A stretch of DNA of 64,000 nt, from assembly GCF_023208015.1 (NCBI RefSeq), contig NZ_CP051627.1, forward strand, positions 744,001 through 808,000, in the 5' to 3' direction. This document shows, in pieces, positions 5,948 to 31,931 of the stretch (position 1 is its first letter; each line of letters opens with the position of its first letter). The DNA is from Thermobifida alba (lineage in GTDB: Bacteria; Actinomycetota; Actinomycetes; Streptosporangiales; Streptosporangiaceae). Under the pieces are notes generated by a model that did not search any database, was not told the origin of the DNA, and was given only the letters and a program-made list of their open reading frames with translations. The position numbers and the translations under genes were made by a program.

Positions 5948-6261
5948 CGTCAGCGGCCCCGTCGGCCACGCCGCGGTGGGCGGGGGACCGCGGCCGGGGA
6001 GGAGAGCCTCCCCGGCCTCTTCCCCTCTAATGATAGTAATAGTTATAATCTCGTGAACCTTTGAGGTTCTCTGTGTTCGCCCCCTCGCTTGTCGTCATCA
6101 CTGCAGGTGGGAGGGGTGGAATGGAGGGTTTCCGGGGGCGGGTGGGCTGTTCTGTGCCGGTGGGCGCGTTGCGCGGGGCTGGACAGGTGTGACCAGGGCC
6201 TCTAACGTGATAACCATCACGATAATCATCATGGTTACGTGGTCAGTTGATTGGATGGCCC
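5948..6261 (+). promoter_or_regulatory. Leader/promoter region of the Liv transporter operon
   Basis: 314 bp without a gene. It holds two AT-rich islands that stand out from the GC-rich surroundings and match the operator family described for 15030-15047: TAATGAT-AGTA-ATAGTTA at 6028-6045 and TAACCAT-CACG-ATAATCA at 6211-6228. A GATAAT at 6221-6226 within the second site could be a -10 element, placing the operator over the promoter. TAACCAT (6211-6217) and ATGGTTA (6231-6237) also form an inverted repeat. Confidence 0.6.
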
Positions 6262-7440
6262 ATGAACATGCGCAAGAGCTGGTCCCGTTCCGTTCTGGCC
6301 GCCACCGGAGCCGCGGTCCTGCTCGCGGGAGCCGCCGGATGCGGCGGCGACCCGGCGGAGAGCACGGCCGGCGAGGGACTGCCGGACACGATCAAGGTCA
6401 TGTCCATCAAGGAGATGACCGGTGCGGTCTCCTTCGCGGGGGAGAACAGCACCAAGGGCGTCGACCTGGCGGTCGAGCAGATCAACGAGCAGGGGTTCCT
6501 CGGCGACACCAAGCTGGAGGTCGTCCTGGAGGACGGATCCGACAGCACCCAGGAGGCCGCCAGCCTCGCCACGCAGGCGATCTCCGACTCCTCCTACTCC
6601 GCGATCCTCGGCCCCGGCCTCAGTAGCCAGGCCTCCGCCATCTCGCCGATCGCGGAGAAGAACCAGATGCCGGTCATCTACTACCAGGCGGGCAGCAAGG
6701 GCGTCCTCACCGGCGACTACACCTACCGGGTCACCGCGCCCGCGGAGAGCTACTACCACATCATCGGCGACTACCTGGCCGAGAAGAAGATCGAGACCGC
6801 CGCGCTCCTCTACAACAGCGCCAACCCGACGCTCACCGAACTCGGCGAGAACGTGGTCCCCGGAGTGATCGAGGACAACGGCGTCTCCATCGAGCGCTCC
6901 GACACGGTCACCAACGAGACCCAGGACTTCACCGCGGTCAGCTCCCAGATCGTCAAGGCCGACACGGACGCGGTCTTCCTCCTGCTCCTCGGCCCCCAGA
7001 ACCCCCGCGCCGTCAGCCAGCTCCGGCAGAAGGGCTACGAGGGCGAGATCATCGGCATGACCACGATGGGCGCCGGCAACCTGGAGACCGCGGGCGAGGA
7101 CGCCGCCGGCGTCGTGTGGCCCAGCAACTTCAGCGCGCGCAGCGAGGCCCCCTCCACCCAGGAGTTCGTCGAGGCGTACAAGGCCAAGTACGACGGCGAG
7201 ATCCCCAACAACTACGCCGCCGAGGGCTACGACGCGACGTGGCTGCTGGCCCGCGGTATCAAGGAGGCCAACAGCGCCGACCGCGTCGCCATCCAGGAGG
7301 GCATCGCCAAGGTCGCCCAGGAGGGCTTCGACGGCGCCCAGGGGCCGCTGACCTTCGAGGGCAACGACGTGCGCGTCGAGGGAGTGCTGGCCAGCTGGGA
7401 CGGCTCCGAGGAGATCGTCATCACGCTGGACGGTTCCTGA
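6262..7440 (+). CDS. ABC transporter substrate-binding lipoprotein, Liv (branched-chain amino acid) type
   Basis: 392-aa periplasmic-binding-protein-like lipoprotein of the LivJ/Peripla_BP_6 family. It begins with a positively charged signal peptide and the lipobox AAGC about 25 residues in, followed by a GGDPAESTA linker. The body has KVMSIKEMTGAVSFAGEN and GPGLSSQASAISPIAEKNQMP, typical of family members that bind amides, aromatic acids or other organic acids rather than only leucine. ATG 6262 is preferred (GGATGG upstream; ATG 6268 possible). It is the first gene of a five-gene importer unit, and two AT-rich operator-like sites lie upstream. Confidence 0.92.
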   Translation: MNMRKSWSRSVLAATGAAVLLAGAAGCGGDPAESTAGEGLPDTIKVMSIKEMTGAVSFAGENSTKGVDLAVEQINEQGFLGDTKLEVVLEDGSDSTQEAASLATQAISDSSYSAILGPGLSSQASAISPIAEKNQMPVIYYQAGSKGVLTGDYTYRVTAPAESYYHIIGDYLAEKKIETAALLYNSANPTLTELGENVVPGVIEDNGVSIERSDTVTNETQDFTAVSSQIVKADTDAVFLLLLGPQNPRAVSQLRQKGYEGEIIGMTTMGAGNLETAGEDAAGVVWPSNFSARSEAPSTQEFVEAYKAKYDGEIPNNYAAEGYDATWLLARGIKEANSADRVAIQEGIAKVAQEGFDGAQGPLTFEGNDVRVEGVLASWDGSEEIVITLDGS

Positions 7441-7543
7441 CGATGGACCGCCCGACCACCAGAGACGTCGGAAGAAGACAGGCAGCGGTGAGCACTCGCT
7501 CCACACCCACACGGCACACCACGGTTGAGAGGAGGTCCCCCCA

Positions 7544-8434
7544 GTGGTGGAGACCCTGATCAACGCGGTCACCCTCGGGTCGATCTACCTGCTGTTCGCG
7601 CTCGGCATGAGCGTGGCGTGGGGGACCATCGGCATCCTCAACTTCGCCCACGGCAGCACGTTCATGATCTCCGCGATGGTGGCCTACTACCTCGTGCAGC
7701 AGGTCTCGCTGCCCATGCCGGTCATGATCCTGATCGGGGGCGCGGTGGGCATGCTGGTCTCCGTGCTGACCCAGGCGCTGGTCTTCAACCCGATCCAGCG
7801 CCGCAATCCCGACCTCCTCAAGGCCGAGATGCAGATCGTGGTGGGCGGCATCGGGGTGGCCAGCGTCCTGCTGGCCATCGCCCAGAACCTCACCAAGAGC
7901 GTGCCGTTCGGCTTCTCGGCCAGCACGTTCACGATCAGGGCCTACTGGGTCGGCCCGGTGCAGATCTCCAACGTGCAACTGGTCATTCTGGTGGCGGCCG
8001 CCGTCCTGGCCGGGCTGACCGCGTGGTGGCTGCGGTCGGCCCGGGCCGGGCTGGCCCTGCGCGCCATCGGCGTCAACCCCGAGGTCGCCAGCCTCATGGG
8101 CGTCGACCGGGGACGGATGGCGCTCGGCACGATGGCGGCGGCCGGGGCCCTGGCCGGGATCGCCGGGATCCTGCTGACCTACTACCTGGGGTCGATCGCC
8201 GCGGAGACCGGAGACAGCCTCCTCATCAGCGCGTTCGCGGCGATCATTCTCGGCGGCGTCGGATCGGTCGCCGGCGTGGTCACCGGAACGATGATCCTGG
8301 CCTTCGCCGAGACGCTCGTGGTGACCCACCTGTCGGGCACCTGGGCCAACGCGGTGGCTTTCGGGCTCATCTTCCTGGTGCTGCTCTTCCTGCCCCGCGG
8401 CATCTTCGGCCGTAAGGAGGTACGGCGGACGTGA
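7544..8434 (+). CDS. ABC transporter permease, LivH type
   Basis: 296-aa integral membrane permease of the branched-chain amino acid class with about eight hydrophobic helices; GSIYLLFALGMSVAWGTIGILNFAHG near the N-terminus is diagnostic of LivH, and AAIILGGVGSVAGVVTGT near the C-terminus is the coupling region. GTG start at 7544 follows GAGAGGAGGT. It overlaps the next gene by four bases (GTGA). With the LivM-like partner it forms the membrane pore of the importer. The 103-bp gap after the binding-protein gene is consistent with higher expression of the binding protein. Confidence 0.92.
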   Translation: MVETLINAVTLGSIYLLFALGMSVAWGTIGILNFAHGSTFMISAMVAYYLVQQVSLPMPVMILIGGAVGMLVSVLTQALVFNPIQRRNPDLLKAEMQIVVGGIGVASVLLAIAQNLTKSVPFGFSASTFTIRAYWVGPVQISNVQLVILVAAAVLAGLTAWWLRSARAGLALRAIGVNPEVASLMGVDRGRMALGTMAAAGALAGIAGILLTYYLGSIAAETGDSLLISAFAAIILGGVGSVAGVVTGTMILAFAETLVVTHLSGTWANAVAFGLIFLVLLFLPRGIFGRKEVRRT

Positions 8435-9363
8435 TCTGGTACGAGGCGAACCTGGTCCTGATCGAGGCCACGTTCATCAACTTCCTCCTGGCGCTGAGCA
8501 TCCAGATCCCGCTGCGGGTCGGAGTCTTCTCCTTCGCCGGCGTCGGAAGCTACGGGATCGGCGCCTACGCCGCGGCGATCCTGACCATCCGCTACGACGT
8601 CCCCGCCTTCGCCGCGATCGGCGCCGCCGTCGTCCTCGCGGCGGTCGTCGGCTACCTCTTCTCCCTGGTGGTGGCCCGGCTCAGCGGCCTGTACCTGGCG
8701 ATGGCCACGGTCGCGTTCGTGCTGATCATCTCGGTGCTCGCGGTCAACGGCGGCGAGCTGACCGGGGGCGCGCACGGCCTGTACGGGGCGCTCAGCGACC
8801 TGACCACCGGCGGCGTGATCGCGGTGTGCGTCGTGGTGGCGGCGCTGCTCACGCTCACCGAACGGGGACCGCTGCGCAGGCGGATCGAGGCGGTCCGGGA
8901 GGACCCGGAGCTGTCCCTGTCCATGGGCATCGGGGTCGTTCCGATGCGGCAGCTGGCCTTCACCGTCAGCGGCGCGCTCGGCGCGTGCGCCGGCGCGATG
9001 AACACGCTGCTGCGCACCACCGTCTCTCCCGAGGAGCTCAACTTCCACCTGATCGTCCTCGCCCTGACGATGGTCGTCATCGGCGGTTCCCGGTCGTGGG
9101 TCGGCGCCTTCATCGGCGCCGTGATCTTCACCTGGCTGCCGAGCCTGCTGTCGGTCGTGGGCGAGTGGCAGGGCGTCGTCTACGGCGTGGTCGTCGTCCT
9201 CGCCGCGATCTTCATGCCGACCGGCCTGGTGGGCGCGGTCAAGGACCTCCACCGGCGGATCCGCGGCCGCAACAGGACGGTCCCGACCGCTTCGGACGAC
9301 GTCAAGGAGGAGCGCGAGGTGTTCGAGACGCTCAGCGACGACTCCACGGAGGGGGTGCGATGA
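8431..9363 (+). CDS. ABC transporter permease, LivM type
   Basis: 310-aa second permease of the Liv importer, with multiple hydrophobic segments and the family motif RVGVFSFAGVGSYGIGAYAA near the N-terminus and LTMVVIGGSRSWVGAFIGA in the second half. GTG start at 8431 overlaps the LivH stop and follows AAGGAGGT. The C-terminal tail (RRIRGRNRTVPTASDDVKEE) is hydrophilic and presumably cytoplasmic. The stop overlaps the ATP-binding gene start. Confidence 0.91.
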   Translation: MIWYEANLVLIEATFINFLLALSIQIPLRVGVFSFAGVGSYGIGAYAAAILTIRYDVPAFAAIGAAVVLAAVVGYLFSLVVARLSGLYLAMATVAFVLIISVLAVNGGELTGGAHGLYGALSDLTTGGVIAVCVVVAALLTLTERGPLRRRIEAVREDPELSLSMGIGVVPMRQLAFTVSGALGACAGAMNTLLRTTVSPEELNFHLIVLALTMVVIGGSRSWVGAFIGAVIFTWLPSLLSVVGEWQGVVYGVVVVLAAIFMPTGLVGAVKDLHRRIRGRNRTVPTASDDVKEEREVFETLSDDSTEGVR

Positions 9364-10133
9364 CGACGGCCCAGACCGCGCCTCCCGTGCTGGAGGCCGA
9401 GGACGTGGCGGTGCACTACGGCGGCATCAAGGCCGTGGACGGCTTCGGGCTCCGGCTTCCGGCGGGGAAGATCTACGGAATCCTCGGCCCGAACGGCTCC
9501 GGCAAGAGCACCTTCCTGGCGGCCGTGACCCGGCTGGTGCCGCTCACCCGGGGACGTCTGCTCATCGACGGCAGGGAGTACCACACGGAGTCGCCGACCA
9601 CGCTGGCCCGCAAGGGCCTGGCCCGGACCTTCCAGACCGTGCGGCTGCTGCCGGAGCTGACCGTCCTGGAGAACGTCCAGCTCGGCGCGGACACGAACGC
9701 CTCCGGAGGACGGCTGAGGTCCTGGCTGGGCCGGGACAAGCCGTCCGAGGCGGTCGAGGAGGCGATCGAGCGGACCGGGCTGGGCGACGTCCGTTCCGCC
9801 TGGCCGGGGGAGCTGTCCTACGGAATGGCGCGCCGGGTGGAGATCGCCCGGGCCCTGGCGGCGCGGCCGCGGCTGCTCCTGCTCGACGAGCCGACCGCGG
9901 GCATGAACCACTCCGAGCGGCAGGAGGTCTCGGAGCTGATGCGCAAACTGCGGGACGAGGGGCTGGCCCAGCTGATCGTCGAGCACGACGTCCAGATGAT
10001 GGTGGACACCTGCGACCACCTCGTGGCGATGAACTCCGGCACGCTCGTGGCCGAGGGCTCGCCCTCGGAGGTCGTCTCCCATCCCGCGGTGCAGGAGGCC
10101 TATCTGGGGAAGCGGTGGCGGTCCCATGCTTGA
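9360..10133 (+). CDS. ABC transporter ATP-binding protein, LivG type
   Basis: 257-aa ATPase that powers the Liv importer. Walker A is GPNGSGKST near residue 42, Walker B is LLLLDEP, and the H-loop is EHD (IVEHDVQMM). The signature motif is LSYGMARRVEIARAL; the usual LSYGQQRR Gln is Met here, an uncommon but plausible change. ATG 9360 overlaps the LivM stop, and its 3' end overlaps livF by 8 bp. The C-terminal VVSHPAVQEAYLG matches LivG proteins. Confidence 0.92.
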   Translation: MTTAQTAPPVLEAEDVAVHYGGIKAVDGFGLRLPAGKIYGILGPNGSGKSTFLAAVTRLVPLTRGRLLIDGREYHTESPTTLARKGLARTFQTVRLLPELTVLENVQLGADTNASGGRLRSWLGRDKPSEAVEEAIERTGLGDVRSAWPGELSYGMARRVEIARALAARPRLLLLDEPTAGMNHSERQEVSELMRKLRDEGLAQLIVEHDVQMMVDTCDHLVAMNSGTLVAEGSPSEVVSHPAVQEAYLGKRWRSHA

Positions 10134-10842
10134 GATCCGTGATCTGCACGTCAGCTACGGAAAGATCGAGGCCGTCCGCGGGGTGAGCGCCTCGGCGGCC
10201 CCCGGCCGGATCACCCTGGTGCTCGGGGCCAACGGCGCGGGCAAGACCACGACGCTGCGGGCGGCCATGGGCCTGCTGCCGGTCCGCTCGGGCGAGGTGG
10301 TGCTGGACGGCACGCCGGTCACCGGCCGGCCGACCCACCGCATCGTGCGCGAGGGCCTGGCCCTGGTGCCGGAGGGGCGGCAGGTCTTCGCCCCGCTGAC
10401 CGTGGAGGAGAACCTGACCCTCGGCGGCTACACCGTGAGCCGGGAGAAGGCGTCGGGAACCCTGGAGCGCGCCTACGAGATGTTCCCCATCCTCAAGGAG
10501 CGGCGCAACGGTCCGGCCGGCCTGCTCAGCGGCGGGGAGCAGCAGATGCTCGCCTTCGGACGGGCGCTGATGTCCTCGCCGCGGGCGATGATGCTGGACG
10601 AGCCCTCCATGGGGCTGGCCCCCACGATGGTCGAGTCCGTGTTCGGCGCGGTCCGCACCATCGCCGACTCCGGCATCGCGCTGCTCATGGTGGAGCAGAA
10701 CGCCGACATGGGGCTGGAGATCGCCGACGACGTCGTGGTCGTGGCGCGCGGTGAGGTGGTGTTCAGCGGCCCGGCGGAGCAGGCCCGCCGCAACACCTCG
10801 GTGGTCCGCGCCTTCCTGGGGGAGGCGGCGCTCGGTTCCTGA
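10126..10842 (+). CDS. ABC transporter ATP-binding protein, LivF type
   Basis: 238-aa second ATPase of the importer. Walker A is GANGAGKTT near residue 37, signature LLSGGEQQMLAFGRAL, Walker B AMMLDEPSMGLAP, and ALVPEGRQVFAPLTVEENL is typical of LivF. The start lies inside the end of the LivG gene, so translation is coupled. It is the last gene of the transporter unit; a hairpin terminator follows at 10854-10882. Confidence 0.93.
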   Translation: MLEIRDLHVSYGKIEAVRGVSASAAPGRITLVLGANGAGKTTTLRAAMGLLPVRSGEVVLDGTPVTGRPTHRIVREGLALVPEGRQVFAPLTVEENLTLGGYTVSREKASGTLERAYEMFPILKERRNGPAGLLSGGEQQMLAFGRALMSSPRAMMLDEPSMGLAPTMVESVFGAVRTIADSGIALLMVEQNADMGLEIADDVVVVARGEVVFSGPAEQARRNTSVVRAFLGEAALGS

Positions 10843-10935: not shown

Positions 10936-12459
10936 GTGTCGCGAACCCCGACCGAAACCTCCGAGGTCTCCCCGAGCCGGGTCATCGTCCCGCTGGTCCT
11001 CGGCGGACTGACCTACGCCATGTCGCAGAACGCGATCGTCCCGGTCCTCGCGGAGATCCAGCGCGCCACCGGCTCCACCGTCAGCGAGGCGGCCTGGGTG
11101 GTCACCGGCTTCTTCATCTCCTCGGCGGTGCTGGCCGTGATCGCCGGGCGCCTGGGGGACCTGCTCGGCCGCAAGCCGGTGCTGCTCGCCGTGCTGGCCC
11201 TGTTCGCGCTCGGCGGCGTGATCGCCGCGGCGGGCGGATCGCTGGGCGCGGTGGTCGCCGGACGGGTGGTCATGGGGGCGGCGGGCGGCGTCTTCCCGCT
11301 GGCCTTCGCCATTCTCGGCCGGCTGCTGCCCCGGGACCGGGCGGCGGTCGGCATGGGCATGGTCAGCTCCATGCTCGGCCTGGGCGGCGCGCTCGGGCTG
11401 CCCCTGGGCGGCCTGGTCGCCGACCACTTCGGCTACCAGGGGCTCTTCTGGGGCTCGGCGGGCATGGCGGCGGTGTCCCTGGCCGCGATCGCGGTCCTGG
11501 TGCCGGGGGTGCCCGGACACGGCGAGGGCCGGATCGACTGGACCGGCGCGGTCCTGCTCACCTTCGCGCTGAGCACCGTGCTGCTCGCGGTCAGCCAGGG
11601 GGCGACGTGGGGATGGCGCTCCGCCCCGGTCGTCGCCCTGGTCGGCGCGGGGAGCGCGGCCCTGGTCGCGCTGCTGGTGGTGGAGCGCCGGGTCCGCGAC
11701 CCGCTGATCAACCTGGGCCTGATGCGGGTGCGCAACGTCTGGCTGGCGCACGTCATCGGATTCCTGGTGAACTGCGGGCAGATCACGGCCTTCCTGCTGG
11801 TGCCGCAGATGGTCCAGATGCCGGCCGGGGGCGGGGTCGGCCTGGGGGCGGGGGCGACCCAGGCCGGGATGTACCTGCTGCCCTTCTCGCTGACCACCCT
11901 GGTGGCGGGGGCGCTGACCGGCCGGGCCGTCGCACGCTTCGGGACCCGGCCCCCGCTGGCGGTGGGCGCGGCCTCGGCCGTGGCCGGACTGGCGATCCTG
12001 GCCTTCTGCCCGACCAGCCCGGCCACGGTCCTGCTCGGGGCGGGGATCACCGGGATCGGCGGCGGAACGGTCTACAGCGTGCTCCCGGTCCTCATCTCCG
12101 AGTCGGTGCCGGAGCACGAGGTGGGCGCGACCAACGGGATCAACACCATCATCCGCACCATCTCCATGGCGCTCCTGTCGCAGGTGACCACGGTGGTGCT
12201 GGTCCTGTGGACCCCCGAGGGGGCGCAGTACCCGCTGCGGGCGGGGTTCACGATCGACTACAGCCTGGCCGCGCTGCTCAACCTGCTGGCCCTGTTCCTG
12301 GTGCCGCTGGTGGTCTCCACCGTGGCGGGCGGCGCCCGGCGGAGCGGGCGGGGACGGCGCGCGGGGCGCGCCGCGGCGCGGGACCCGGAGTCGGAGCGGA
12401 CAGCGGCCGGGGACCACCCGCGGAGCGAGACATCCGATGACAGGAGGACAACGGGATGA
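10936..12459 (+). CDS. MFS transporter, DHA2 (EmrB/QacA) type
   Basis: 507-aa major facilitator with about 14 predicted membrane helices, a length and pattern typical of proton-driven DHA2 exporters. Motif A reads GRLGDLLGRKPVLL near residues 71-84, and GLGGALGLPLGG corresponds to motif C of antiporters. GTG start at 10936; the C-terminus is a basic cytoplasmic tail. The stop overlaps the ATG of the SnoaL-like gene, so both form a two-gene unit inserted between the importer and the catabolic genes. It may export a product or a toxic intermediate of the pathway (inference). Confidence 0.9.
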   Translation: MSRTPTETSEVSPSRVIVPLVLGGLTYAMSQNAIVPVLAEIQRATGSTVSEAAWVVTGFFISSAVLAVIAGRLGDLLGRKPVLLAVLALFALGGVIAAAGGSLGAVVAGRVVMGAAGGVFPLAFAILGRLLPRDRAAVGMGMVSSMLGLGGALGLPLGGLVADHFGYQGLFWGSAGMAAVSLAAIAVLVPGVPGHGEGRIDWTGAVLLTFALSTVLLAVSQGATWGWRSAPVVALVGAGSAALVALLVVERRVRDPLINLGLMRVRNVWLAHVIGFLVNCGQITAFLLVPQMVQMPAGGGVGLGAGATQAGMYLLPFSLTTLVAGALTGRAVARFGTRPPLAVGAASAVAGLAILAFCPTSPATVLLGAGITGIGGGTVYSVLPVLISESVPEHEVGATNGINTIIRTISMALLSQVTTVVLVLWTPEGAQYPLRAGFTIDYSLAALLNLLALFLVPLVVSTVAGGARRSGRGRRAGRAAARDPESERTAAGDHPRSETSDDRRTTG

Positions 12460-12953
12460 CCGAGGACGTCGAGCGGCGGCTGCGCCGCCTGGAGGACCGG
12501 GCGGAGATCCACGACCTGGTCGCACGCTACGCCCTGGCGGTGGACGACCGCGACTACGCCGCGCTGGCCGGGATGTACGCCGCCGACGCGGTGTTCGACC
12601 ACGCGGGGGCCGTCCTGCGCGGCCGTGAGGCGATCGTGGAGTTCCTGCGGGAGCGGGCGAAGCTGAACGGCAGGACCGTGCACTCGCCGCACACCATCGC
12701 GATCGAGTGGGTGGACGACGACACGGCGCGGGGCACCGTCGCCGGGCACGCCGAAATCGAACGCGACGGGGAGTTCCTCCTCGCCGCGTTCCGCTACCAC
12801 GACTCCTACGTCCGGCAGGACGGCGCCTGGCGGTTCCGGGAGCGCAGGTCGAAGTTCCTCTACGTCACCCCGGTGCAGCACCTCGCGGAGATCTTCCGCA
12901 CCCCGCTCACCCTGCGCTGGCCGGGGACCGAACCCGCGCCGAGCGAACTGTGA
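12456..12953 (+). CDS. SnoaL-like / NTF2-fold protein
   Basis: 165-aa cone-fold protein of the SnoaL_4/NTF2-like group, seen in LEDRAEIHDLVARYALAVDDRDYAALAGMYAADAVF and the C-terminal YVRQDGAWRFRERRSKFLYV. Members include small hydratases, cyclases and the beta subunits of ring-hydroxylating dioxygenases; no dioxygenase alpha subunit is present here, so a stand-alone isomerase/dehydratase or binding protein is likely. The start overlaps the MFS stop. Precise reaction unknown. Confidence 0.85.
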   Translation: MTEDVERRLRRLEDRAEIHDLVARYALAVDDRDYAALAGMYAADAVFDHAGAVLRGREAIVEFLRERAKLNGRTVHSPHTIAIEWVDDDTARGTVAGHAEIERDGEFLLAAFRYHDSYVRQDGAWRFRERRSKFLYVTPVQHLAEIFRTPLTLRWPGTEPAPSEL

Positions 12954-13213: not shown

Positions 13214-14002
13214 TCAGCTCTCCAGGCCGAGGATCCGGGCGAGGTTGCCGCCCAGGATCGCGGCCTCGTCGTCGGGGTGCAGTTCCAGCCGCCGGATGGC
13301 CTCGATCTCGGCGGCCGGGTCCACCATCGGCCAGTCGGAGCCGAAGATCATCCGGTCGGGGCCGTGCCGGTGCACCAGGGCGCGCAGCCGCTCGGTGGGG
13401 ATCTCGGCCAGGCTCGGCGGCCACGAGGTCTCCAGCACCAGGGGCAGCCCCACCACGTACTTCTCCGCGTCGTCCAGCCGCCGGAAGCCGCCGAAGTGGC
13501 AGGCCATCAGCCGCAGCTTCGGGAAGTTGCGCACCACGTCGGCGAGCATCTGCGGGGTGGAGTTGTCGTTGGCCGAGCCCTCCCCGCCGAAGCCCACGTG
13601 GGTGATGACCGCGATGTCGGAGCCGAAGGCGTCGAACAGGTCCCACAGCCGCCGGTCGTCCAGGGAGAACCGCTGGTACAGCGGGTGCAGCTTCACGCCC
13701 TTGATGCCGTGGCGCTGCAGGATCTCCATGTTCTCCTCGACCGACAGGTCGAGGTGGACGGTGCCGAACGGGGTGAGCCAGTCGCTGCGCTGGGAGGAGA
13801 TGAACTCGTTGGCGCGGTCGACGTGGCGGGCGTGGTCGGCGATGCCGAAGGCGACGCAGTGGTCGATCCCGGCGGCCGCCATGGAGCGCTTCAGCCCGGG
13901 GACGGTGCCGTCGTACAGCGCCTCCATGCCGGGAACGCGTCCGGCCAGGGCCTTGGCCGCGATCTTCTCCGGCCAGACATGGGTGTGTGCGTCGATGATC
14001 AT
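13214..14002 (-). CDS. Amidohydrolase family 2 (ACMSD-like) metal-dependent hydrolase/decarboxylase
   Basis: 262-aa TIM-barrel enzyme of the amidohydrolase_2 family, which contains decarboxylases such as ACMSD and hydrolases. The metal ligands are visible: HxH in DAHTHVW at residues 4-10, Lys/His in GVKLHPLY, His in ITHVGFGG and ACHFGG, and Asp in FGSDWPM near residue 222. It ends 7 bp before the SDR stop region, downstream of the SDR in the same minus-strand unit. A role in decarboxylation or hydrolysis of a ring-derived acid is an inference. Confidence 0.87.
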   Translation of the reverse strand: MIIDAHTHVWPEKIAAKALAGRVPGMEALYDGTVPGLKRSMAAAGIDHCVAFGIADHARHVDRANEFISSQRSDWLTPFGTVHLDLSVEENMEILQRHGIKGVKLHPLYQRFSLDDRRLWDLFDAFGSDIAVITHVGFGGEGSANDNSTPQMLADVVRNFPKLRLMACHFGGFRRLDDAEKYVVGLPLVLETSWPPSLAEIPTERLRALVHRHGPDRMIFGSDWPMVDPAAEIEAIRRLELHPDDEAAILGGNLARILGLES

Positions 14003-14009
14003 GGTTGCC

Positions 14010-20982: not shown

Positions 20983-21036
20983 CCTCCCCGAACCCGCCGA
21001 GGAAGTCGACCGCACCACAGGACTGCCGAGGCACGC

Positions 21037-21064
21037 CGCCCCCGCTCTACACGGAGCGGGGGCG
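21037..21064 (+). terminator. Hairpin between acyl-CoA synthetase and flavoprotein genes
   Basis: 11-bp inverted repeat (CGCCCCCGCTC / GAGCGGGGGCG) with a 6-nt loop TACACG. It could be a terminator or an attenuating stem inside one operon; 41 bp separate it from the next start. Confidence 0.45.
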
Positions 21065-21105
21065 TCCGCGCAGAGCACACCCGCAACCACGAACGAGGAA
21101 GCACG

Positions 21106-23198: not shown

Positions 23199-23252
23199 AG
23201 TGACGCAAGTCACTTGATTGGTTGACATTGCTGATAATTATCTGAATCATGA
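23199..23252 (+). promoter_or_regulatory. Promoter of the SsuABC-type importer with two operator-like elements
   Basis: TTGACA at 23222-23227 with a 17-bp spacer to AATCAT (23245-23250) forms a sigma-70-type promoter. The cluster palindrome TAATTAT-CTGA-ATCATGA (23235-23252) covers the -10 region, so repression is expected. Just upstream is a separate perfect palindrome AGTGACGCAAGTCACT (23199-23214) whose GTGA-N6-TCAC core matches CRP/FNR-family boxes and sits at about -50 to -60, an activator position. Confidence 0.6.
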
Positions 23253-23385: not shown

Positions 23386-24447
23386 ATGGGTATCGCCCGC
23401 AGTGGCGGAGCTGTCCGCGCCCTCGCCCTGACCGCCACCCTGGCCCTCGCGCTCAGCGCCTGCGGCCGGTCCGCGTCCGACACCCCCGAGCAGAACGCGG
23501 ACGGCCTCACCACGGTGAAAGTGGGCCTGGCCGCCCCCACGTTCAACACGGCCCTGATCAACCTGGTGATCGACGAGGACCTGGACGCCGAGCACGGCCT
23601 CGACATGCAGCCCACCAGGAGCGGCGCGGGCAGCACCAACCAGATCGCGGCGCTGCGCGCCGGCGAGTACGACTTCGCCGGGGTCGGCACCGCCACCGCG
23701 GCCGACGCCGTCGCCGAGGGCGCGGGACTGGTCGTCGTCGCCGGAACCGGAGGACTCATCAACAACGTGGTCCTCAACTCCGAGGTCGCCGAGGGACTCG
23801 ACGTCTCTGCCGACGCCCCGGTGGAGGAGCGGATCAAGGCCCTGCGCGGCCTGACGATCGCCACCAGCCCGCCCGGCTCCTCCAGCAACCTCACCCTGCG
23901 CCACCTGGTCAGGGAGCAGGGACTCGACCCCGACAAGGACCTCAACATCGTCCCGGTCAACGACACCTCCGCCCTGGTCTCCGGCATCCGCCAGGGCCAG
24001 TTCGACGGCAGCTTCTTCGGCGTCGGCATCGCCGACGCCAACATCGCCGACGGGTCCGGAACACTGTGGATCTCGCTGCCGCGCGGCGACATCGAGGAGT
24101 TCGACGACCTGATCGGCGTCTGCATCGTCAGCACCCGGGAGTTCGTGGACAACAACCCCGAGGTGATCGAGGCCTTCCACGCCGCACTCGCCGACGCCCA
24201 GGAGTTCGTCGCCTCCGACCCCGAGGCGGCCGGGGAGGCCCTGCACGCCAACTCCTTCGCCGACCTGGACGCCGACGTCTTCGCCACCTCCTGGGAGCAG
24301 GCGCGGACCGGATACCCCGAGGGCGCGCTGTTCACCCGCGAGAACTGGGACACCTACGTGGAGCTCTTCGGAGAGGCCACGGACAAGGACCTGACGAGCA
24401 TCGACTACGAGGACTTCGTCGCCGAGCCCGCCCGCGGCGAGTCCTGA
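23386..24447 (+). CDS. ABC transporter substrate-binding lipoprotein, SsuA/TauA/NMT1 type
   Basis: 353-aa secreted lipoprotein: positively charged N-terminus, hydrophobic stretch and lipobox LSAC at about residues 24-27. The mature part has VKVGLAAPTFNTALINLVIDEDLDAEHGL and AGSTNQIAALRAGEYDFAGVGTATAADAV, typical of the NMT1/SsuA fold that binds sulfonates, taurine, nitrate, pyrimidine precursors or aromatic acids. ATG 23386 has AGAAGGACG upstream. It leads a three-gene importer operon and is preceded by a strong promoter with overlapping operator. Confidence 0.9.
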   Translation: MGIARSGGAVRALALTATLALALSACGRSASDTPEQNADGLTTVKVGLAAPTFNTALINLVIDEDLDAEHGLDMQPTRSGAGSTNQIAALRAGEYDFAGVGTATAADAVAEGAGLVVVAGTGGLINNVVLNSEVAEGLDVSADAPVEERIKALRGLTIATSPPGSSSNLTLRHLVREQGLDPDKDLNIVPVNDTSALVSGIRQGQFDGSFFGVGIADANIADGSGTLWISLPRGDIEEFDDLIGVCIVSTREFVDNNPEVIEAFHAALADAQEFVASDPEAAGEALHANSFADLDADVFATSWEQARTGYPEGALFTRENWDTYVELFGEATDKDLTSIDYEDFVAEPARGES

Positions 24448-24484
24448 GGCCCGGACCGTGCGAAGCTCCATCGAGGAAGCCCCC

Positions 24485-25297
24485 ATGCACCACCAGGACA
24501 CCGGCCGCGCCCCAGGGCGGACCATCTTCGAGACCCGGGGCATGGCCGTGGGATTCGGCGACCGGCCCGACGTCCTCGCCGGCGTGGACCTGCGCGTCGG
24601 CGCGGGAGAGTTCGTGGCCCTGCTCGGCCCCAGCGGCTGCGGCAAGTCCACCATCCTCAACACGGCAGCGGGCCTGCTGCGCCCGCGCCGCGGCGAGGTG
24701 CTCTTCGACGGACGCCCCGTCACCGGGGTGAACACCTCCGTCGGGTACATGACGCAGGACGACACCCTGCTGCCGTGGCGGACGGTCGCCGCCAACGTCG
24801 CGCTGCCGCTGCGGATGCGCCGGTTCCCCAAGCAGCGCATCCAGGAAGAGGTCGCACGCTACCTCGCCTTCCTGGACCTGGAGCACGCGGCCGGACTGTA
24901 CCCCGCCCAGCTCAGCGGCGGCATGCGGCGCCGGGCGCTGCTCGCGCGCAGCATGATCTACGATCCGGCGCTGCTGCTCATGGACGAGCCGTTCGCCGCG
25001 CTGGACGCGCAGATGCGCCAGCAACTCCACGCCGACCTGCGCCGGGCCGTCCGCAGCACGGAGCAGACGGTCCTGTTCGTCACCCACGACCTCACCGAGG
25101 CCGCGGTGCTGGCCGACCGGGTCCTCGTCATCGGCGGCGGACCGCCCGGGGGAGTGGTGGCCGAGTTCACCATGCCCTTCGGCGCGGAACGGGACCCCGC
25201 GACGCTGCCCTACGAGGACGGCTTCGCCCAGGTCCAGCAGGAGTTGCAGGAGGCGCTGACCAAGGCGCGGGTACCGGCGGCGAAGGAAGAGGGGTGA
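24485..25297 (+). CDS. ABC transporter ATP-binding protein, SsuB/TauB type
   Basis: 270-aa ATPase. Walker A is GPSGCGKST, Q-loop GYMTQDDTLLPWRTV, signature LSGGMRRRALLARSM, Walker B LLLMDEPFAALD and H-loop THD. The Q-loop context MTQDDTLLPW is characteristic of the nitrate/sulfonate/taurine group. ATG 24485 is chosen because GAGGAAG precedes it; an in-frame GTG is at 24458. The stop overlaps the permease start. Confidence 0.92.
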   Translation: MHHQDTGRAPGRTIFETRGMAVGFGDRPDVLAGVDLRVGAGEFVALLGPSGCGKSTILNTAAGLLRPRRGEVLFDGRPVTGVNTSVGYMTQDDTLLPWRTVAANVALPLRMRRFPKQRIQEEVARYLAFLDLEHAAGLYPAQLSGGMRRRALLARSMIYDPALLLMDEPFAALDAQMRQQLHADLRRAVRSTEQTVLFVTHDLTEAAVLADRVLVIGGGPPGGVVAEFTMPFGAERDPATLPYEDGFAQVQQELQEALTKARVPAAKEEG

Positions 25298-26145
25298 GGT
25301 CGGTGAGCACCGTGGTCACCGAACGGGAGGCGACCGCCGAGCAGGCCCCCGAGGCGGCCAAGCCGGGCCGCGGCCGCACCCGGATCCGGTGGAGGATCCA
25401 CCTGGTGCAGGTGGGACTCATCGCCGCGATCCTGGCGGCCTGGGAGCTGAGCGCCGGACGGCTGGTCGACGACCTGCTCACCAGCCGCCCCTCCGAGATC
25501 TTCCCGACCTTCTGGTCCTGGATCGTCTCCGGCGAGCTGCTCTACCACGCCTCCAGCACCTTCAAGGACGCCTTCCTCGGGCTCCTCAGCGGAGGGGCGG
25601 CCGGGCTGGTCGTGGGCTGCGTGCTCGGCCAGTCGAAACGGCTGGCGCAGGTGTTCGAACCGTTCATCACCGCGTTCTACACCATGCCCAAGCACGCGCT
25701 GATCCCCCTGTTCATCATGTGGGTCGGGATCGGCTCGGAGCTGCGGGTGCTCACCGCCGCGGCGATCGTGTTCTTCCTGGTCTTCTACAACACCTTCTTC
25801 GGCATCCGCGACGTCAGCCAGAACCTGGTCGACTCGGTCCGGGTGATGGGCGGAACCCCGCTCGACGTGCTCTTCCGGGTGATGCTGCCGTCCGCGCTGA
25901 TCTGGGTGTTCGCCGCGTTGAAGCTGGCCGTCCCGCAGGCGATCGTCGGCGTGGTGGTCGCCGAGATGCTGGCGGGAGACCGCGGCCTGGGCTTCCTGGT
26001 GTCGATGAACGCGGGCACGTTCAACAGCGACGGCACGTTCGCCGCGATCCTGGCGCTGCTCATCGTCGGCTTCCTCGTGGACCGGCTGATGAACCTGGTC
26101 ACCCGCCGGGCGCTGCTGTGGAAGAACAGCGACAGGGCGGTCTGA
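25294..26145 (+). CDS. ABC transporter permease, SsuC/TauC type
   Basis: 283-aa permease with about six membrane helices after a hydrophilic N-terminal tail of about 35 residues. The cytoplasmic coupling motif is NLVDSVRVMGGTPLDVLFRVMLPSALIW (EAA-loop type), and VVVAEMLAGDRGLGFLV is typical of the SsuC family. Start is GTG 25294 (overlapping the ATPase stop) or GTG 25303. It completes the importer; the gene is followed by a hairpin at 26303-26332. Confidence 0.9.
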   Translation: MRSVSTVVTEREATAEQAPEAAKPGRGRTRIRWRIHLVQVGLIAAILAAWELSAGRLVDDLLTSRPSEIFPTFWSWIVSGELLYHASSTFKDAFLGLLSGGAAGLVVGCVLGQSKRLAQVFEPFITAFYTMPKHALIPLFIMWVGIGSELRVLTAAAIVFFLVFYNTFFGIRDVSQNLVDSVRVMGGTPLDVLFRVMLPSALIWVFAALKLAVPQAIVGVVVAEMLAGDRGLGFLVSMNAGTFNSDGTFAAILALLIVGFLVDRLMNLVTRRALLWKNSDRAV

Positions 26146-27676: not shown

Positions 27677-27695
27677 GGCGCGGGGGCGCGGTCCG

Positions 27696-29435
27696 CTACG
27701 GGGCGCTGCCGCTGTTGGGGCGGCCGCCCAGGGCCAGCACCGTCAGCACCACCGCCGTGGAGACCACGGTGATGACCACCGACAGCGAGGCCAGCAGCGG
27801 GAACGTGCCCGCGGTCCACAGGTCCAGGATGGCCTGGCCCACGACCGGGGAGCCCGGTCCGGCGAGCATCGCCGAGGCGTTGATCTCGCCCGCCGACAGG
27901 ATGAACAGCAGCGACCAGCCCGCCACCAGGCTCGGCGCCATCAGCGGCAGGATCACCCGGAGGAAGACCCGCCAGTCGCGGGCGCCGGAGACCTCCGCGG
28001 CCTCCCGCATCTCCGGACCGATCTGCTGGATCGCGGAGTTGGCGTAGAACGACGCCTGCGGCAGGAAGATCACCACGTAGGTGCTGACCAGCAGCAGCAG
28101 GGTCCCGTTCCAGCGGAAGGGCGGACCGGCGAACGCCACCAGGAAGGCGATGCCCACCACGATGTGCGAGATCGCCGCCGGAACCTTGATGACGCCGTCG
28201 ACGAGACGCCCCAGGAACGAGCGGCGCCGGTAGGACAGGTAGGCCAGCAGCGCCGCCAGCAGGGTGGTGATGGTCGCGGTCAGCAGCGCCAGCAGCAGGC
28301 TGTTGGTGATGCCCCGGCGCACCGCCAGGCGTCCCCACAGGTCGACGTAGTTGTCGACGCTCAGGGTGCCGAAGTCGACCTGCGGCGTCCAGAAGCCCTG
28401 GAAGGAGACCAGCAGCAGGGCCAGGAACGGCAGCACCGAGGTGGCCCCCAGGTAGCCGAGCACCAGCAGCCGCGCCGGAAGCTTCCAGCGGCCCAGCGAG
28501 ACCAGCGCCGCGCGGGCCCCGCGCCCGCCGATGCGGGCGAACCGCCCCTTGGCCATGATGCGGCGCTCCACCGACCAGGCGACGACCACGATGGTGATCA
28601 GGATCAGGCTCATGCTCAGCGCCGTGATCAGGTCCGGCGGGTACTTGCGGGTCACCGCCTGCACGATGGACACCGGAAGCACCTGGATCTGGGCGGAGGT
28701 GCCGATGACCACGGGGACCGAGAACAGCGCGAAGCCGATGGTGATCAGCTGCAGCACCGCCGCGCCCATGGCGGGCTTGAGGTTGGGCAGGGTCACCCGG
28801 AACAGGGTCTTGACCGGCCCGCACCCGGAGACCCGGGCCGCCTCCTCCAGCGCCGGGTCCAGCGACTGCAACCCGCTGGAGATCGCCAGGTAGGCGTAGG
28901 GGGTCAGGTAGAGGGCGTAGACGAAGACCAGCCCGGGCCAGGTGAAGATGTCCAGCGGCCCGGTCTCCAGGTGGACGCCGACCAGCCCCAGCAGCTTCCG
29001 CAGCCAGTGGTTGAGGAAGCCCGCCTCGGGCGTGGCCAGGAAGACCCAGCCGATCGAACCCGCGATGGCGGGCACGAACAGCGGCATCAGCGGCAGCGCC
29101 TCGGCGGCCCACCCCATCCGGGCGTCGGTGCGCACGTTGATCCACGCCAGCACGGCGCCGATGAGGAAGGCCAGCCCGCCGCCCAGGGCCACGGCCACGA
29201 CCGCGTTGCGGAGCACCTCCAGGGTCCTGGCGCTGGTGAGCACGTCGAGCACGGCGGGCAGTTCCATGCCCAGCTCGCCGATGAAGGCGCGGCCCACCGG
29301 GTAGACGATGAAGGCGACCACGACGGCCGCGGCCACCCAGCTCACCAGCTGGAAGGAGGAGAACCTGCGGCCGGACCGGGCCGGCCGCGCGGCGGCTGCG
29401 GGAACGGTTTCAGGCCGTTGCAACGTACTAGTCAT
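27696..29435 (-). CDS. ABC transporter permease, FbpB/two-domain iron(III)-putrescine type
   Basis: 579-aa fused permease with two homologous halves of about six helices each, as in FbpB/SfuB-type importers. Each half has its own coupling loop: SLDPALEEAARVSGCGPVKTLFRVTLP in the first, GPEMREAAEVSGARDWRVFLRVILP in the second. ATG at 29435 overlaps the ATPase stop by 8 bp. With the flanking ATPase and binding protein it forms an importer for ferric iron, phosphonate, thiamine or a similar small anion/cation; the ligand is not decidable from sequence. Confidence 0.9.
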   Translation of the reverse strand: MTSTLQRPETVPAAAARPARSGRRFSSFQLVSWVAAAVVVAFIVYPVGRAFIGELGMELPAVLDVLTSARTLEVLRNAVVAVALGGGLAFLIGAVLAWINVRTDARMGWAAEALPLMPLFVPAIAGSIGWVFLATPEAGFLNHWLRKLLGLVGVHLETGPLDIFTWPGLVFVYALYLTPYAYLAISSGLQSLDPALEEAARVSGCGPVKTLFRVTLPNLKPAMGAAVLQLITIGFALFSVPVVIGTSAQIQVLPVSIVQAVTRKYPPDLITALSMSLILITIVVVAWSVERRIMAKGRFARIGGRGARAALVSLGRWKLPARLLVLGYLGATSVLPFLALLLVSFQGFWTPQVDFGTLSVDNYVDLWGRLAVRRGITNSLLLALLTATITTLLAALLAYLSYRRRSFLGRLVDGVIKVPAAISHIVVGIAFLVAFAGPPFRWNGTLLLLVSTYVVIFLPQASFYANSAIQQIGPEMREAAEVSGARDWRVFLRVILPLMAPSLVAGWSLLFILSAGEINASAMLAGPGSPVVGQAILDLWTAGTFPLLASLSVVITVVSTAVVLTVLALGGRPNSGSAP

Positions 29436-30582
29436 GATCGAGCACCACAACGCACGCGGCGGGGTCCACACCGACCCACACCTTCCGACCTGGGACCAGT
29501 TCCGGATCGTCGTCCGCCCACACCCGGACGCTGGTCTCGCCGACCCGGACCACGTACTCGGTGTAGGAGCCGGCGAAGACGGCGTTGGTGATCTCCCCGG
29601 ACCAGACGTTCTCACCGGAACGCTCGACGGTGTCGATCCACCAGCGGTGGGCGCGGCTGGCCACGAACCGGGAGCCGTCCGCGGACGCCCCGGGGCCGGG
29701 GTCGGCGATCCGCATCGGCCCGATGGCGGTCGCCACCTGGTGGGAGTCACCGCCGGCCGAGGTCACCGGGATCAGGTTGGCGGTGCCGATGAACTCGGCG
29801 ACGTAGCGGTTGCGGGGCCGCTCGTAGATGTCGCGGGCCGACCCGTTCTGCATGACCTTTCCGGAGCGCATCACGGTGATCTGGTCGGCCAGCTCCATCG
29901 CCTCGGCCTGGTCGTGGGTGACGTAGACCGCGGTGAAGCCCAGGTCCTGCTGCATGGCGCGCAGTTCCCGGCGCAGGATCTCGCGGACCTTGGCGTCGAT
30001 GTTGGACAGCGGCTCGTCGAACAGCACCACGTCGGTGCCCGCGACGATGGCGCGGGCCAGCGCCACACGCTGCTGCTGGCCGCCGCTGAGCTGCCCGATC
30101 GCGCGGGTGCCGTGCGAGGACAGGCCCATGATCTTGAGGACCTCGTCCACCCGGGCGCGGATCTGCTCCTTGGGCATCCGGTCCTTGCGGGGGCCGGTGG
30201 TGAGCGGGAAGGCCACGTTGTCGGCCACGGTCATGTTGGGCCACAGCGCGTAGCTCTGGAACACCATGCCCACCGGACGGTCCTGGGGTTCGACGGTGCG
30301 CAGTCCGGGCCCGAAGACCGGCTGGCCGTCGATGGTGATGCGGCCTTCGTCGGGGTGCTCCAGACCGGCCAGGCAGCGCAGCAGCGTGGTCTTGCCGCAG
30401 CCGCTGGGGCCGAGCAGGACGCAGAAGTCGCCCTTGGGCATGTGCAGGGTGACGTCATCGACGGCCGCCACGATCGTTCCGTCGGGCGCGCGGAAGCGTT
30501 TGCGCAGACCGACGATGTCCACCCCGTTGCGCGGCTCCTCCGTGACGGCGGACGCCGGGGTGTCGTGCGTGGTCATGGTCAT
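29428..30582 (-). CDS. ABC transporter ATP-binding protein, FbpC/PotA type
   Basis: 384-aa ATPase. Walker A is GPSGCGKTT near residue 59, signature LSGGQQQRVALARAI, Walker B VVLFDEPLSNIDAK, H-loop THD. The C-terminal third (from about 260) is an OB-fold TOBE-like regulatory domain. The FbpC-type Q-loop MVFQSYALWPNMTV is visible. AGGAGAA precedes the ATG at 30582. It is the middle gene of the minus-strand importer operon, 24 bp after the binding-protein gene. Confidence 0.92.
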   Translation of the reverse strand: MTMTTHDTPASAVTEEPRNGVDIVGLRKRFRAPDGTIVAAVDDVTLHMPKGDFCVLLGPSGCGKTTLLRCLAGLEHPDEGRITIDGQPVFGPGLRTVEPQDRPVGMVFQSYALWPNMTVADNVAFPLTTGPRKDRMPKEQIRARVDEVLKIMGLSSHGTRAIGQLSGGQQQRVALARAIVAGTDVVLFDEPLSNIDAKVREILRRELRAMQQDLGFTAVYVTHDQAEAMELADQITVMRSGKVMQNGSARDIYERPRNRYVAEFIGTANLIPVTSAGGDSHQVATAIGPMRIADPGPGASADGSRFVASRAHRWWIDTVERSGENVWSGEITNAVFAGSYTEYVVRVGETSVRVWADDDPELVPGRKVWVGVDPAACVVVLDHD

Positions 30583-30606
30583 CGGGAGTTCTCCTAGAAG
30601 GGTGGA

Positions 30607-31623
30607 TCAGAAGCCGAGCAGCTCGTTGAGGTGGTCCTGCTCCTCCAGTGCGAGGCTCAGGTCCGGGGTGACGTAGCCCTCGGGCTCGGGCAGGGTGCCC
30701 TCCAGCTCACCGAGCGGCGAGATGCCGAAGCCCTCGTTGAGGGCGATCTGGCCCTTCTCCGACATCAGGAAGTTGGCGAACAGCAGCGCGGCGTTGGGGT
30801 GCGGGGAGCCCTCCGCCACGGCCGTGTACTGCTCGACGCCGGTGGTGGGGGCGAGGTAGGCCAGCTCCACGGGGGCGCCGGACTCCTGCAGCGGGTTGAC
30901 CACCGAGGGCAGGCTGGGGAAGGTGGTCAGGGACTCGCCGGCGGCCACCTGCTGGGTTCCGGGGATGGCGCTGTCGACCTTCTTGATGTCGTTGTCGGCC
31001 AGGCCCTCCAGGAACTCCTCGCCGTACTCCTCCTTGAGGATGCGCAGCAGTTCGGTCCAGGACAGGAACGACTGGGGGTCGGCGGTGTCGATCTCGCCCT
31101 TCAGCTTGGGGTCGAGCAGGTCCTCCCAGCTCTCCACGTCGGAGGCGGAGAGCTTGTCGGTGTTGTAGGCGACGCCGATGGGCTGGGAGTTGACCAGGAA
31201 GTAGGCGTCCTTGTGCAGGGCCTCCTCCGGCCAGTCGGCCATGTTCTCGACCTGGTCGGCGGGGAGTTCGCGGATCCAGCCCTTCTCCAGGTACTCGTCG
31301 AGCACGTGGGCCTCGGGGATGGTGACCAGGTCGCCCACGGACTGTCCGGAGTCGCGCTCGGTGGAGTAGCGCTGGGCCAGGACGGGGGAGCCCATCCGGA
31401 CCACCTCGACGGGGATGCCGTACTCCTCCTCGAAGGCGGCGGCCGCGGCCTGGACAGGTTCGTCGGGGATGGAGACGTACCAGGTGACGATGCCCTCGTT
31501 CTGGGCCGCCTCGACCAGGTCGCCGCCCTCGGAGCCGGCGGATCCTCCGCCGCCGCAGGCGGTCGCGAACAGGGTGAGGGCCAGGGCGACCGAGCCGATC
31601 GGCAGCCAGCGGCGTGTACTCAT
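30607..31623 (-). CDS. Extracellular solute-binding lipoprotein, FbpA/SBP_bac_6-like
   Basis: 338-aa lipoprotein: signal peptide MSTRRWLPIGSVALALTLF then lipobox ATAC and a GGGG linker. The mature part (NEGIVTWYVSIPDEPVQAAAAAFEEEYGIPVEVVR, then VAYNTDKL and a C-terminal LMSEKGQIALNEGFGISPLG) matches the ferric-iron/thiamine/phosphonate binding-protein cluster D fold. The paired Tyr residues of classical FbpA iron sites are not evident, so iron is not certain. Start ATG 31623 with GGAGGAGCG. It is the first gene of the minus-strand importer. Confidence 0.9.
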   Translation of the reverse strand: MSTRRWLPIGSVALALTLFATACGGGGSAGSEGGDLVEAAQNEGIVTWYVSIPDEPVQAAAAAFEEEYGIPVEVVRMGSPVLAQRYSTERDSGQSVGDLVTIPEAHVLDEYLEKGWIRELPADQVENMADWPEEALHKDAYFLVNSQPIGVAYNTDKLSASDVESWEDLLDPKLKGEIDTADPQSFLSWTELLRILKEEYGEEFLEGLADNDIKKVDSAIPGTQQVAAGESLTTFPSLPSVVNPLQESGAPVELAYLAPTTGVEQYTAVAEGSPHPNAALLFANFLMSEKGQIALNEGFGISPLGELEGTLPEPEGYVTPDLSLALEEQDHLNELLGF

Positions 31624-31931
31624 CGCTCCTCCAATGACGGGGGTGAGTGAACTCATTATGAGGTTTATTATTGTTATCATGATTTGAGTGAGCCGAACAG
31701 AGCGTACTGCCCGGTCGATCTGGTCGGACTCAGAGGGGGCGGCCTCCCAGGGATCCTGAGAAGTATGTGGTCGTATGTGGCTGTTCGTCACGAATGTTAC
31801 GTGATGTCCGTTACGGTGCAACAAGGGGTAGGTAACACCTGACCTGCGCCGAAGCCACGGCGCCTCGCTCCCGGAACTGTCACGGGCCGCGGCCACCCTT
31901 CCCGGACACGTCCCCTCCCGGAAGGACCCCC
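31624..31931. promoter_or_regulatory. Divergent intergenic region with operator-like palindrome
   Basis: 308 bp. TTATTAT-TGTT-ATCATGA at 31665-31682 matches the cluster operator family, its right arm being identical to that before the SsuA-type gene. On the minus strand CATAAT lies at about 31655 as a likely -10 for the importer, so the operator sits at the -35 region. Towards the HEAT gene a second AT-rich stretch (CACGAATGTTACGTGATGTCC, near 31790-31810) may hold its promoter. TCCCAGGGATCCTGAGAA at about 31746-31763 is unexplained. Confidence 0.55.
31665..31682. promoter_or_regulatory. Operator-like palindrome before the FbpA-type gene
   Basis: TTATTAT-TGTT-ATCATGA, a member of the TAAYNAT-N4-ATNATNA family found before the Liv, SDR/hydratase, acyl-CoA synthetase and SsuA units. 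Confidence 0.5.

Follow-up and report, generated by a model that had tools for sequence, protein, structure and literature searches.

An AT-rich palindrome at catabolic and importer promoters of Thermobifida alba, the probable operator of a GntR/FCD regulator

A stretch of 64,000 nucleotides from Thermobifida alba (positions 744001-808000 of the 4.90 Mb genome, hereafter the window) contains genes for several importers and for CoA-dependent catabolism, and an AT-rich palindrome, TAAYNAT-N4-ATNATNA, recurs in front of them. Which regulator reads this palindrome, and which genes does it control? The reading favoured here, with considerable confidence, is that GntR1, a GntR/FCD regulator whose gene lies upstream of the window, uses the palindrome as its operator, and that its paralogue GntR2, encoded inside the window, probably does so too. 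These proteins would repress the catabolic operons and importers and would be released by a pathway intermediate.

A search of both strands of the window with up to two mismatches gave 28 matches, against 0.18 expected from 100 dinucleotide shuffles of the window (standard deviation 0.48, maximum 2). The matches represent about eight places, because the pattern is nearly palindromic and its registers overlap, with shifts of 3, 6, 9 or 12 bp between overlapping sites. All seven sites named in a preliminary description of this DNA are present in the window sequence. The sites at 6211, 14950, 15030 and 23235 have no mismatch, the site at 6028 has none on the minus strand and one on the plus strand, and those at 18838 and 31665 have one each. 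A weak place near 18760 scores 15.7 bits, and 17.5 bits in a register 6 bp further on, with a matrix built from 11 Thermobifida sites (the Thermobifida matrix), which themselves score 24.5-38.7 bits. One outlying match of the 28 lies at position 40043, with two mismatches. The placement of the sites in intergenic regions is also confirmed: they lie between called genes, in DNA of 72.9% GC, with centres 10-260 bp ahead of the start codons used, although the start codon of the short-chain dehydrogenase/reductase (SDR) gene at 14010-14948 is uncertain (the domain starts near residue 67-71).

A genome-wide search for the symmetrical pattern, two mismatches being allowed, gave 34 places, compared with 10 for a reversed control, and 15 of the 34 fall within 735.9-775.7 kb. 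With at most one mismatch, eight of 11 genome places lie in this interval, which covers 0.8% of the genome (binomial 3e-15; the interval was picked after the sites had been seen, and two of the 11 places overlap). The motif does not occur equally before unrelated genes but is concentrated in this locus. The cluster of sites starts before the window, at a distance of 8 kb, and four further sites were identified in this outlying part (Table 1). Unlinked places include one at 1071.8 kb ahead of an operon for aldehyde dehydrogenase (ALDH), SDR and acyl-CoA synthetase (L017:5811), one at 1089.8 kb with overlapping two-mismatch sites ahead of an Old Yellow Enzyme (OYE)-type reductase (L018:5811), and one at 3399.6 kb near genes for an acyl-CoA dehydrogenase (ACAD) and a luciferase-like (LLM) protein. 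Orthologues of the ALDH and OYE loci in another Thermobifida (L180 and L179 of G003; 83-88% identical) carry the site directly upstream. The unlinked ALDH-SDR-acyl-CoA synthetase and OYE loci, with their strong sites, look like further members of the regulon.

Two other stretches were observed in the course of the genome search. The sequence TTAGGATGGTTATAGTTA, a two-mismatch match to the motif, is identical at four genome places (G000:C1 2282109, 2731698, 3015099 and 3790461) and occurs once in G001:C13; it is probably unrelated and perhaps belongs to a multi-copy element such as the rRNA operons. An AT-rich palindromic stretch, AAAATGATTTTCATT, is located at L020:4905 (genome 1881.9 kb), near a two-mismatch motif match at 1881825, and resembles a Zur-type box.

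Two GntR/FCD proteins are the sole DNA-binding families matched by Pfam among the scanned proteins of the 735.9-775.7 kb interval. The preliminary description had named the GntR/FCD protein at 5014-5805 (GntR2) as a protein to be tried on the sites, along with Fur and MarR candidates. No Fur or MarR family was matched by Pfam among the scanned proteins, regulators elsewhere in the genome lying outside the survey. GntR1, whose own promoter contains a perfect site, is now preferred to GntR2, which probably shares the sites. The winged-helix domain of GntR1 (PF00392; E 8.4e-11, 41.8 bits, cutoff 27) and its FCD domain (PF07729; E 8e-27, 94.6 bits, cutoff 24.3) are both above threshold. The two proteins have a common recognition helix, RG[TS]LRE[SA]LR, and a common wing, PGP[GR]GGP, despite only 34% identity.

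The structure predicted for GntR1 (pLDDT 90.3, pTM 0.82) was matched by Foldseek to NanR, a GntR protein of Streptococcus agalactiae, DhdR, CGL2915 (LldR) of Corynebacterium glutamicum, and FadR, with an E value of 3.6e-11 to NanR and the best query TM score (0.69) to CGL2915. Relatives found by sequence search agree with these structural matches (NanR, S. agalactiae GntR, DhdR and CGL2915/LldR). A histidine triad (H159, H203 and H225) is invariant in seven aligned GntR1/GntR2 sequences; in 48 sequences H159 is invariant, and H203 and H225 are found in at least 90%. The accessible text of PMC4746285 gives a histidine spacing of 48/22 for the metal site of LldR and 40/22 for that of TM0439, to which the triad of GntR1, with a spacing of 44/22, appears to correspond at the sequence level.

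Conservation of the sites was examined in alignments of four Thermobifida species (the window genome, Thermobifida cellulosilytica TB100 (G001), G002 and G003). The palindromes are nearly unchanged in otherwise diverged non-coding DNA at the promoters of GntR1, the thiolase, ACAD1, the Liv importer (proximal site), SDR/crotonase and LLM/synthetase. The GntR1 promoter site is present in all four species. G002 departs from the others at two sites: the left arm of its SDR2 site is partly lost, and its distal Liv site has changed. The preliminary description had placed three importers under one control, and this holds for two of them throughout the genus, the Liv and Fbp importers having a site in all four species. 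SsuA was found in the window genome and in only one of the three other species (E 1e-30 or better), where the site is kept with one mismatch. FbpA occurs in all three other species, and its site is retained with small changes even though the gene lies far from the cluster in T. cellulosilytica (another contig) and in G002 (590 kb away); Fbp therefore looks to be part of the regulon in trans. A conserved weak site, GTGATAATCGTTATACTNA (L016:8384), was also observed between the divergent genes for a cytochrome P450 and an alcohol dehydrogenase (ADH) in three Thermobifida; the fourth gives no alignment of this interval, a contig ending nearby.

Loci outside the genus were gathered by homology to GntR1. 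A scan with a GntR1 alignment gave at least 79 loci, most of them from actinobacteria and one each from a Chloroflexi bin and an uncultured bin. The recurring neighbourhood, found by tblastn with the cluster proteins, consists of CaiB, GntR1, AmH2, SDR3, ACAD2, ACAD1, thiolase, SDR1 and ECH1, and this catabolic gene set adjoins GntR1 in Nocardioides, Pimelobacter, Prauserella, Aeromicrobium, Actinomadura and others, and in part in Rhodococcus. For the matrix test, 78 listed GntR1 loci, T. cellulosilytica being left out, were divided into three identity groups of 25, 26 and 27 loci. The Thermobifida matrix gave 36, 22 and 33 positions of at least 20 bits in these groups (one place may be counted in several overlapping registers, and related loci do not provide independent cases). 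Column-permuted symmetrical matrices gave means of 1.2-1.8 and maxima of 10-13, and none of 100 reached the real count in any group. Sites of at least 17 bits precede the thiolase gene in 24 of 36 cases, ACAD1 in 21 of 25 and GntR1 in 13 of 79, and not one of 200 permuted matrices reached these counts (those for thiolase and ACAD1 depend on each other, since a single divergent promoter often serves both genes). The counts for ECH2 (5/18), P450 (4/14) and CaiB (4/24) are weaker, being reached by 2, 3 and 6 of 200 permuted matrices, respectively. Hardly any sites precede the operon-internal genes ECH1 (0/32), AmH2 (0/25), SDR3 (0/19), ACAD2 (1/26) and SDR1 (1/40).

The same palindrome with the same spacing was recovered de novo, without the Thermobifida matrix, by palindromic expectation-maximization (EM). 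The input consisted of 93 non-redundant upstream regions of 200 bp (63 of GntR1, 29 of thiolase and one of ACAD1), taken from 137, and the result was nAATcATgatcATgATTn with about 76 sites and a log-likelihood of 440.9. Control runs gave 55-73 in six dinucleotide shuffles and 164-175 in three sets of 93 upstream regions of other genes (many of the control regions are probably coding, and these runs had 25 seeds where the real set had 40). Exact half-sites AATNAT/ATNATT are inverted seven times at a spacing of 4 and at most once at any other spacing from 0 to 12; everted half-sites occur up to twice, at a spacing of 8. The palindrome has the form TAAYNAT-N4-ATNRTTA in Thermobifida and AATcAT-gatc-ATgATT more widely. 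The conservation in orthologous clusters that the preliminary description had asked about is thus borne out, both in four Thermobifida species and in GntR1 loci outside the genus, and GntR1 very probably binds the palindrome.

A promoter scan of two stretches gave five promoter-like matches (0.4 expected in each stretch), and all five overlap sites. Those in the direction of the gene are TTGACC-18-TATGAT before SDR2 and TTGACA-17-AATCAT before SsuA, and a minus-strand match at 15071-15044 could serve the divergent SDR gene. This overlap would also be accounted for if the sites were AT-rich core-promoter elements in GC-rich DNA and no operators at all, an explanation that is scarcely credible: matrices permuted so as to keep composition and symmetry fall short of the real counts, the dyad and its 4-bp spacing are conserved, and some sites stand as far as 100-260 bp ahead of the start codon. 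Since the sites lie on or near core promoters, repression by occlusion, with release by a pathway ligand, is favoured.

Several observations weigh against this account of the palindrome as the operator of a GntR1 repressor. Two of the five promoter-like matches run opposite to the gene that they precede, and activation in place of repression at the sites is an alternative. The exact half-site is also found in direct repeat, with a maximum of four cases at a spacing of 3. Seventeen of the 78 listed GntR1 loci have no site above 17 bits, including the four Herbidospora loci, in which palindrome-like stretches are visible by eye. Among GntR1 orthologues of at least 72% identity, the upstream region reaches 17 bits in two of 24 cases and 12 bits in five of 24, and five of ten genomes with a GntR1 of at least 58% identity (G016, G026, G030, G031 and G036) contain no perfect match. 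In the control set of 19 distant FCD paralogues, one gene is preceded by a 22-bit site and two whole loci reach 20 bits. A single perfect match is also present in each of four genomes in which no GntR1 was found at E 1e-20.

These four are related genomes without a close GntR1, and the matches lie in L053, L054, L055 and L056 (position 1501). Two of them read TAACTAT-N4-ATAGTTA, possibly the operator of another regulator.

Perfect matches in genomes lacking GntR1 are what a regulator encoded elsewhere, of the Fur/Zur, MarR or TetR type, might produce if it bound the palindrome and GntR1 were a mere neighbour; the AT-rich overlapping hexamers also bear a superficial likeness to Fur-type boxes. 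This explanation is nevertheless very improbable. The motif emerges de novo in loci of many genera gathered solely by homology to GntR1, the named targets belong to CoA metabolism and import, and no Fur or MarR profile was matched among the scanned cluster proteins, to which the search was confined. A Fur/Zur protein is disfavoured because the target genes and the de novo motif both point to GntR1.

The part played by GntR2 is a separate matter. The protein lies inside the cluster, its gene adjoins the Liv promoter, and it has the recognition helix and wing in common with GntR1; it could therefore be the main regulator of the sites, with GntR1 secondary or acting at another operator. The regions upstream of the GntR2 orthologues in G238, G142 and G187 score 20.5-25.9 bits with the Thermobifida matrix, but these genomes have GntR1 too, and their sites therefore do not separate the two proteins. 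A GntR2 match was found in only five of the 78 listed GntR1 loci outside Thermobifida, yet 61 of the 78 have a site above 17 bits. No site is present upstream of GntR2 itself in any of the four Thermobifida; the upstream scores are 3.3 bits or less in these species and in G044, so that sites are found in three of the four non-Thermobifida genomes. In G044, the one of eight GntR2-bearing genomes without a closer GntR1, no significant site was detected in 20 kb (the best score was reached by 61 of 200 permuted matrices). A leading role for GntR2 is accordingly judged unlikely.

Sharing of the sites by GntR2 is judged probable. In L171 (9760) and L173 (10918) the gene of the GntR2 orthologue is immediately preceded by a related but different palindrome, of the type YAATGACAACCATCATTA, which also occurs in L100 (18427) near a GntR2 gene; it is possibly the version of the operator that GntR2 prefers. 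Three Thermobifida have part of this palindrome in their Liv promoter as well (GACAACCATCA), and GntR1 and GntR2 may therefore read overlapping variants of one site. The preliminary description had deduced one regulator for all units, an interpretation that is supported in part: a common regulator is well supported by the clustering and conservation of the sites, but the set of importers depends on the species and GntR2 is possibly a second reader. At window positions 5890-5950 there is also a long inverted repeat (GGCGCCCCGGTCGCC ... GGCGACCGGGGCGCC), which closely follows GntR2, precedes the Liv promoter and is likely a terminator.

In the mechanism proposed for GntR1, a GntR dimer would place one winged helix on each AATNAT half-site. 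Without ligand, GntR1 would most likely repress its own gene, the operons for acyl-CoA degradation, and the Liv and Fbp importers, as well as Ssu where present. A pathway intermediate, probably a carboxylate or an acyl-CoA bound at the FCD histidine triad, would release the repressor. Release from DNA by a ligand is usual for FCD proteins.

Table 1. Regulators, proposed operator sites and gene units of the locus (window coordinates unless marked as genome coordinates)
Feature	Position	Strand	Basis or remark
GntR1, GntR/FCD regulator	genome 736026-736775, about 8 kb before window		Pfam GntR + FCD
GntR2, GntR/FCD regulator, paralogue of GntR1 (34% identity)	5014..5805	+	Pfam GntR + FCD
Perfect site before GntR1	genome 735965		centre 52 bp before GntR1 start
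Site before thiolase	genome 736860		pattern + matrix
Site before acyl-CoA dehydrogenase	genome 739869		weaker companion at 740095
Site before SDR	genome 742656		pattern + matrix
Operator site, distal, before Liv importer	6028..6045		pattern search, matrix, alignment; altered in one of three other Thermobifida
Operator site, proximal, before Liv importer	6211..6237		overlapping registers 6211 and 6220; few changes in four of four Thermobifida
Operator site, SDR side of divergent promoter	14950..14967		pattern search + alignment
Operator site, perfect, crotonase side of divergent promoter	15030..15047		pattern search + alignment
Weak operator-like site, LLM side	18760..18783		matrix 15.7-17.5 bits; block kept in four of four Thermobifida
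Operator site before acyl-CoA synthetase (ADP-forming type)	18838..18855		pattern search, matrix, alignment
Operator site(s) before SsuA	23223..23252		overlap predicted -35/-10 (first hexamer TTGACA at 23222, second up to 23250)
Operator site(s) before FbpA	31653..31682		two registers, offset by 12 bp; also retained where Fbp is unlinked
HpcH/HpaI-type lyase, MaoC/mesaconyl-CoA-hydratase-like protein, aldehyde dehydrogenase, class III CoA-transferase	775..4922	+	downstream of regulon promoters
LivKHMGF-type importer	6262..10842	+	Pfam
MFS transporter + SnoaL-like protein	10936..12953	+	Pfam
Amidohydrolase-2 + SDR	13214..14948	-	Pfam; true SDR start probably downstream of 14948
BadI/MenB-like crotonase + AMP-forming acyl-CoA ligase	15049..17495	+	Pfam, NCBIfam, structure search
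Luciferase-like (F420-type) oxidoreductase	17730..18740	-	Pfam, NCBIfam
ADP-forming acyl-CoA synthetase + FadH/OYE-type reductase	18865..23118	+	Pfam, NCBIfam
SsuABC-like importer (sulfonate-type)	23386..26145	+	Pfam; window genome and one of three other species
FbpABC-like importer	27696..31623	-	Pfam, NCBIfam

The genes of the putative regulon bear on the substrate. The region before the window and into its first bases encodes, according to Pfam and NCBIfam, a P450, a zinc-type ADH, GntR1, a thiolase, SDRs, a crotonase and three acyl-CoA dehydrogenases. The nearest solved structures of the P450 are CYP125 ancestors, P450cam, CYP142 and P450cin, and those of the crotonase are of the MenB type, its best NCBIfam model being BadI (187 bits, cutoff 468). 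The P450cam, P450cin and CYP125 relatives and the BadI/MenB-like crotonase suggest a ring-bearing acid as substrate, which may be alicyclic or terpenoid. Among the NCBIfam matches listed, only two broad subfamilies, TIGR01930 (thiolase) and NF006100 (a crotonase), were above cutoff, and therefore no particular substrate is claimed. The searches with the amidohydrolase and LivK gave no specific relative, and the Fbp-type substrate-binding protein also shows a weak resemblance to 2-aminoethylphosphonate-binding proteins. A mesaconate- or itaconate-like pathway was considered from the trio of class III CoA-transferase, MaoC/mesaconyl-CoA hydratase (PF19315) and HpcH lyase, and was rejected: the RipC and mesaconate-transferase NCBIfam models were below cutoff, the PF19315 match being above its Pfam cutoff.

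The interval between the SsuABC and FbpABC units contains, at window 27240-27608, two copies of a stretch ending CGCACCGCCCACGACCTGTTCACCGACTGA, separated by about 335 bp. The second copy lies inside a small open reading frame that is rich in GAGGGGCGCGC repeats and has no Pfam match; the stretch looks like a duplicated gene end.

GntR1 resembles members of the FadR (FCD) subfamily (LldR, PdhR and FadR) in its winged helix and FCD domain, and the sites resemble the short palindromic operators of this subfamily at catabolic promoters. The consensus of FadR-subfamily operators given in the accessible text of PMC4494728 consists of TKGT/ACMA boxes in which 2-3 nt separate GT from AC, BioR and NanR being exceptions. 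The present motif does not have these boxes: nAATcATgatcATgATTn contains AT-N4-AT in that place, with AATNAT arms. It differs from the sites analysed there in this AT-N4-AT core without TKGT/ACMA, and the wing is PGP-GGP. Because the subfamily has listed operator exceptions, the membership of GntR1, assigned by its domains, stands. If GntR1 binds the motif, it would be a further exception beside BioR and NanR, FCD/GntR proteins whose operators likewise depart from the common consensus in that text; their motifs, TTATMKATAA for BioR and TGGTATAW direct repeats for NanR, are unlike the present one. A pair of GntR-type regulators acting redundantly over one regulon is described for C. glutamicum GntR1 and GntR2 in the accessible text of PMC2230225. 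That pair differs in controlling gluconate catabolism and glucose uptake, and the shared names are coincidental. No paper on this cluster or motif was found in the literature search, whose coverage left out most subscription papers.

A broader proposal is offered tentatively, the balance being tilted slightly against it. The GntR/FCD proteins with a PGP-GGP wing may form a clade with a new operator class (AATNAT-N4-ATNATT as opposed to TKGT-N3-ACMA), in which a pair of paralogues acts on overlapping palindromes and controls, in part in trans, a pathway for alicyclic or terpenoid acids that is widespread in actinobacteria, along with the importers of this pathway.

The palindrome and GntR1 provide a testable operator and regulator for the catabolic gene set that lies beside GntR1 in many actinobacteria. 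Membership of the regulon, including the unlinked operons, narrows the search for the substrate, and the protein-DNA pair offers a clean case of how winged helices of the FCD type may change their specificity.

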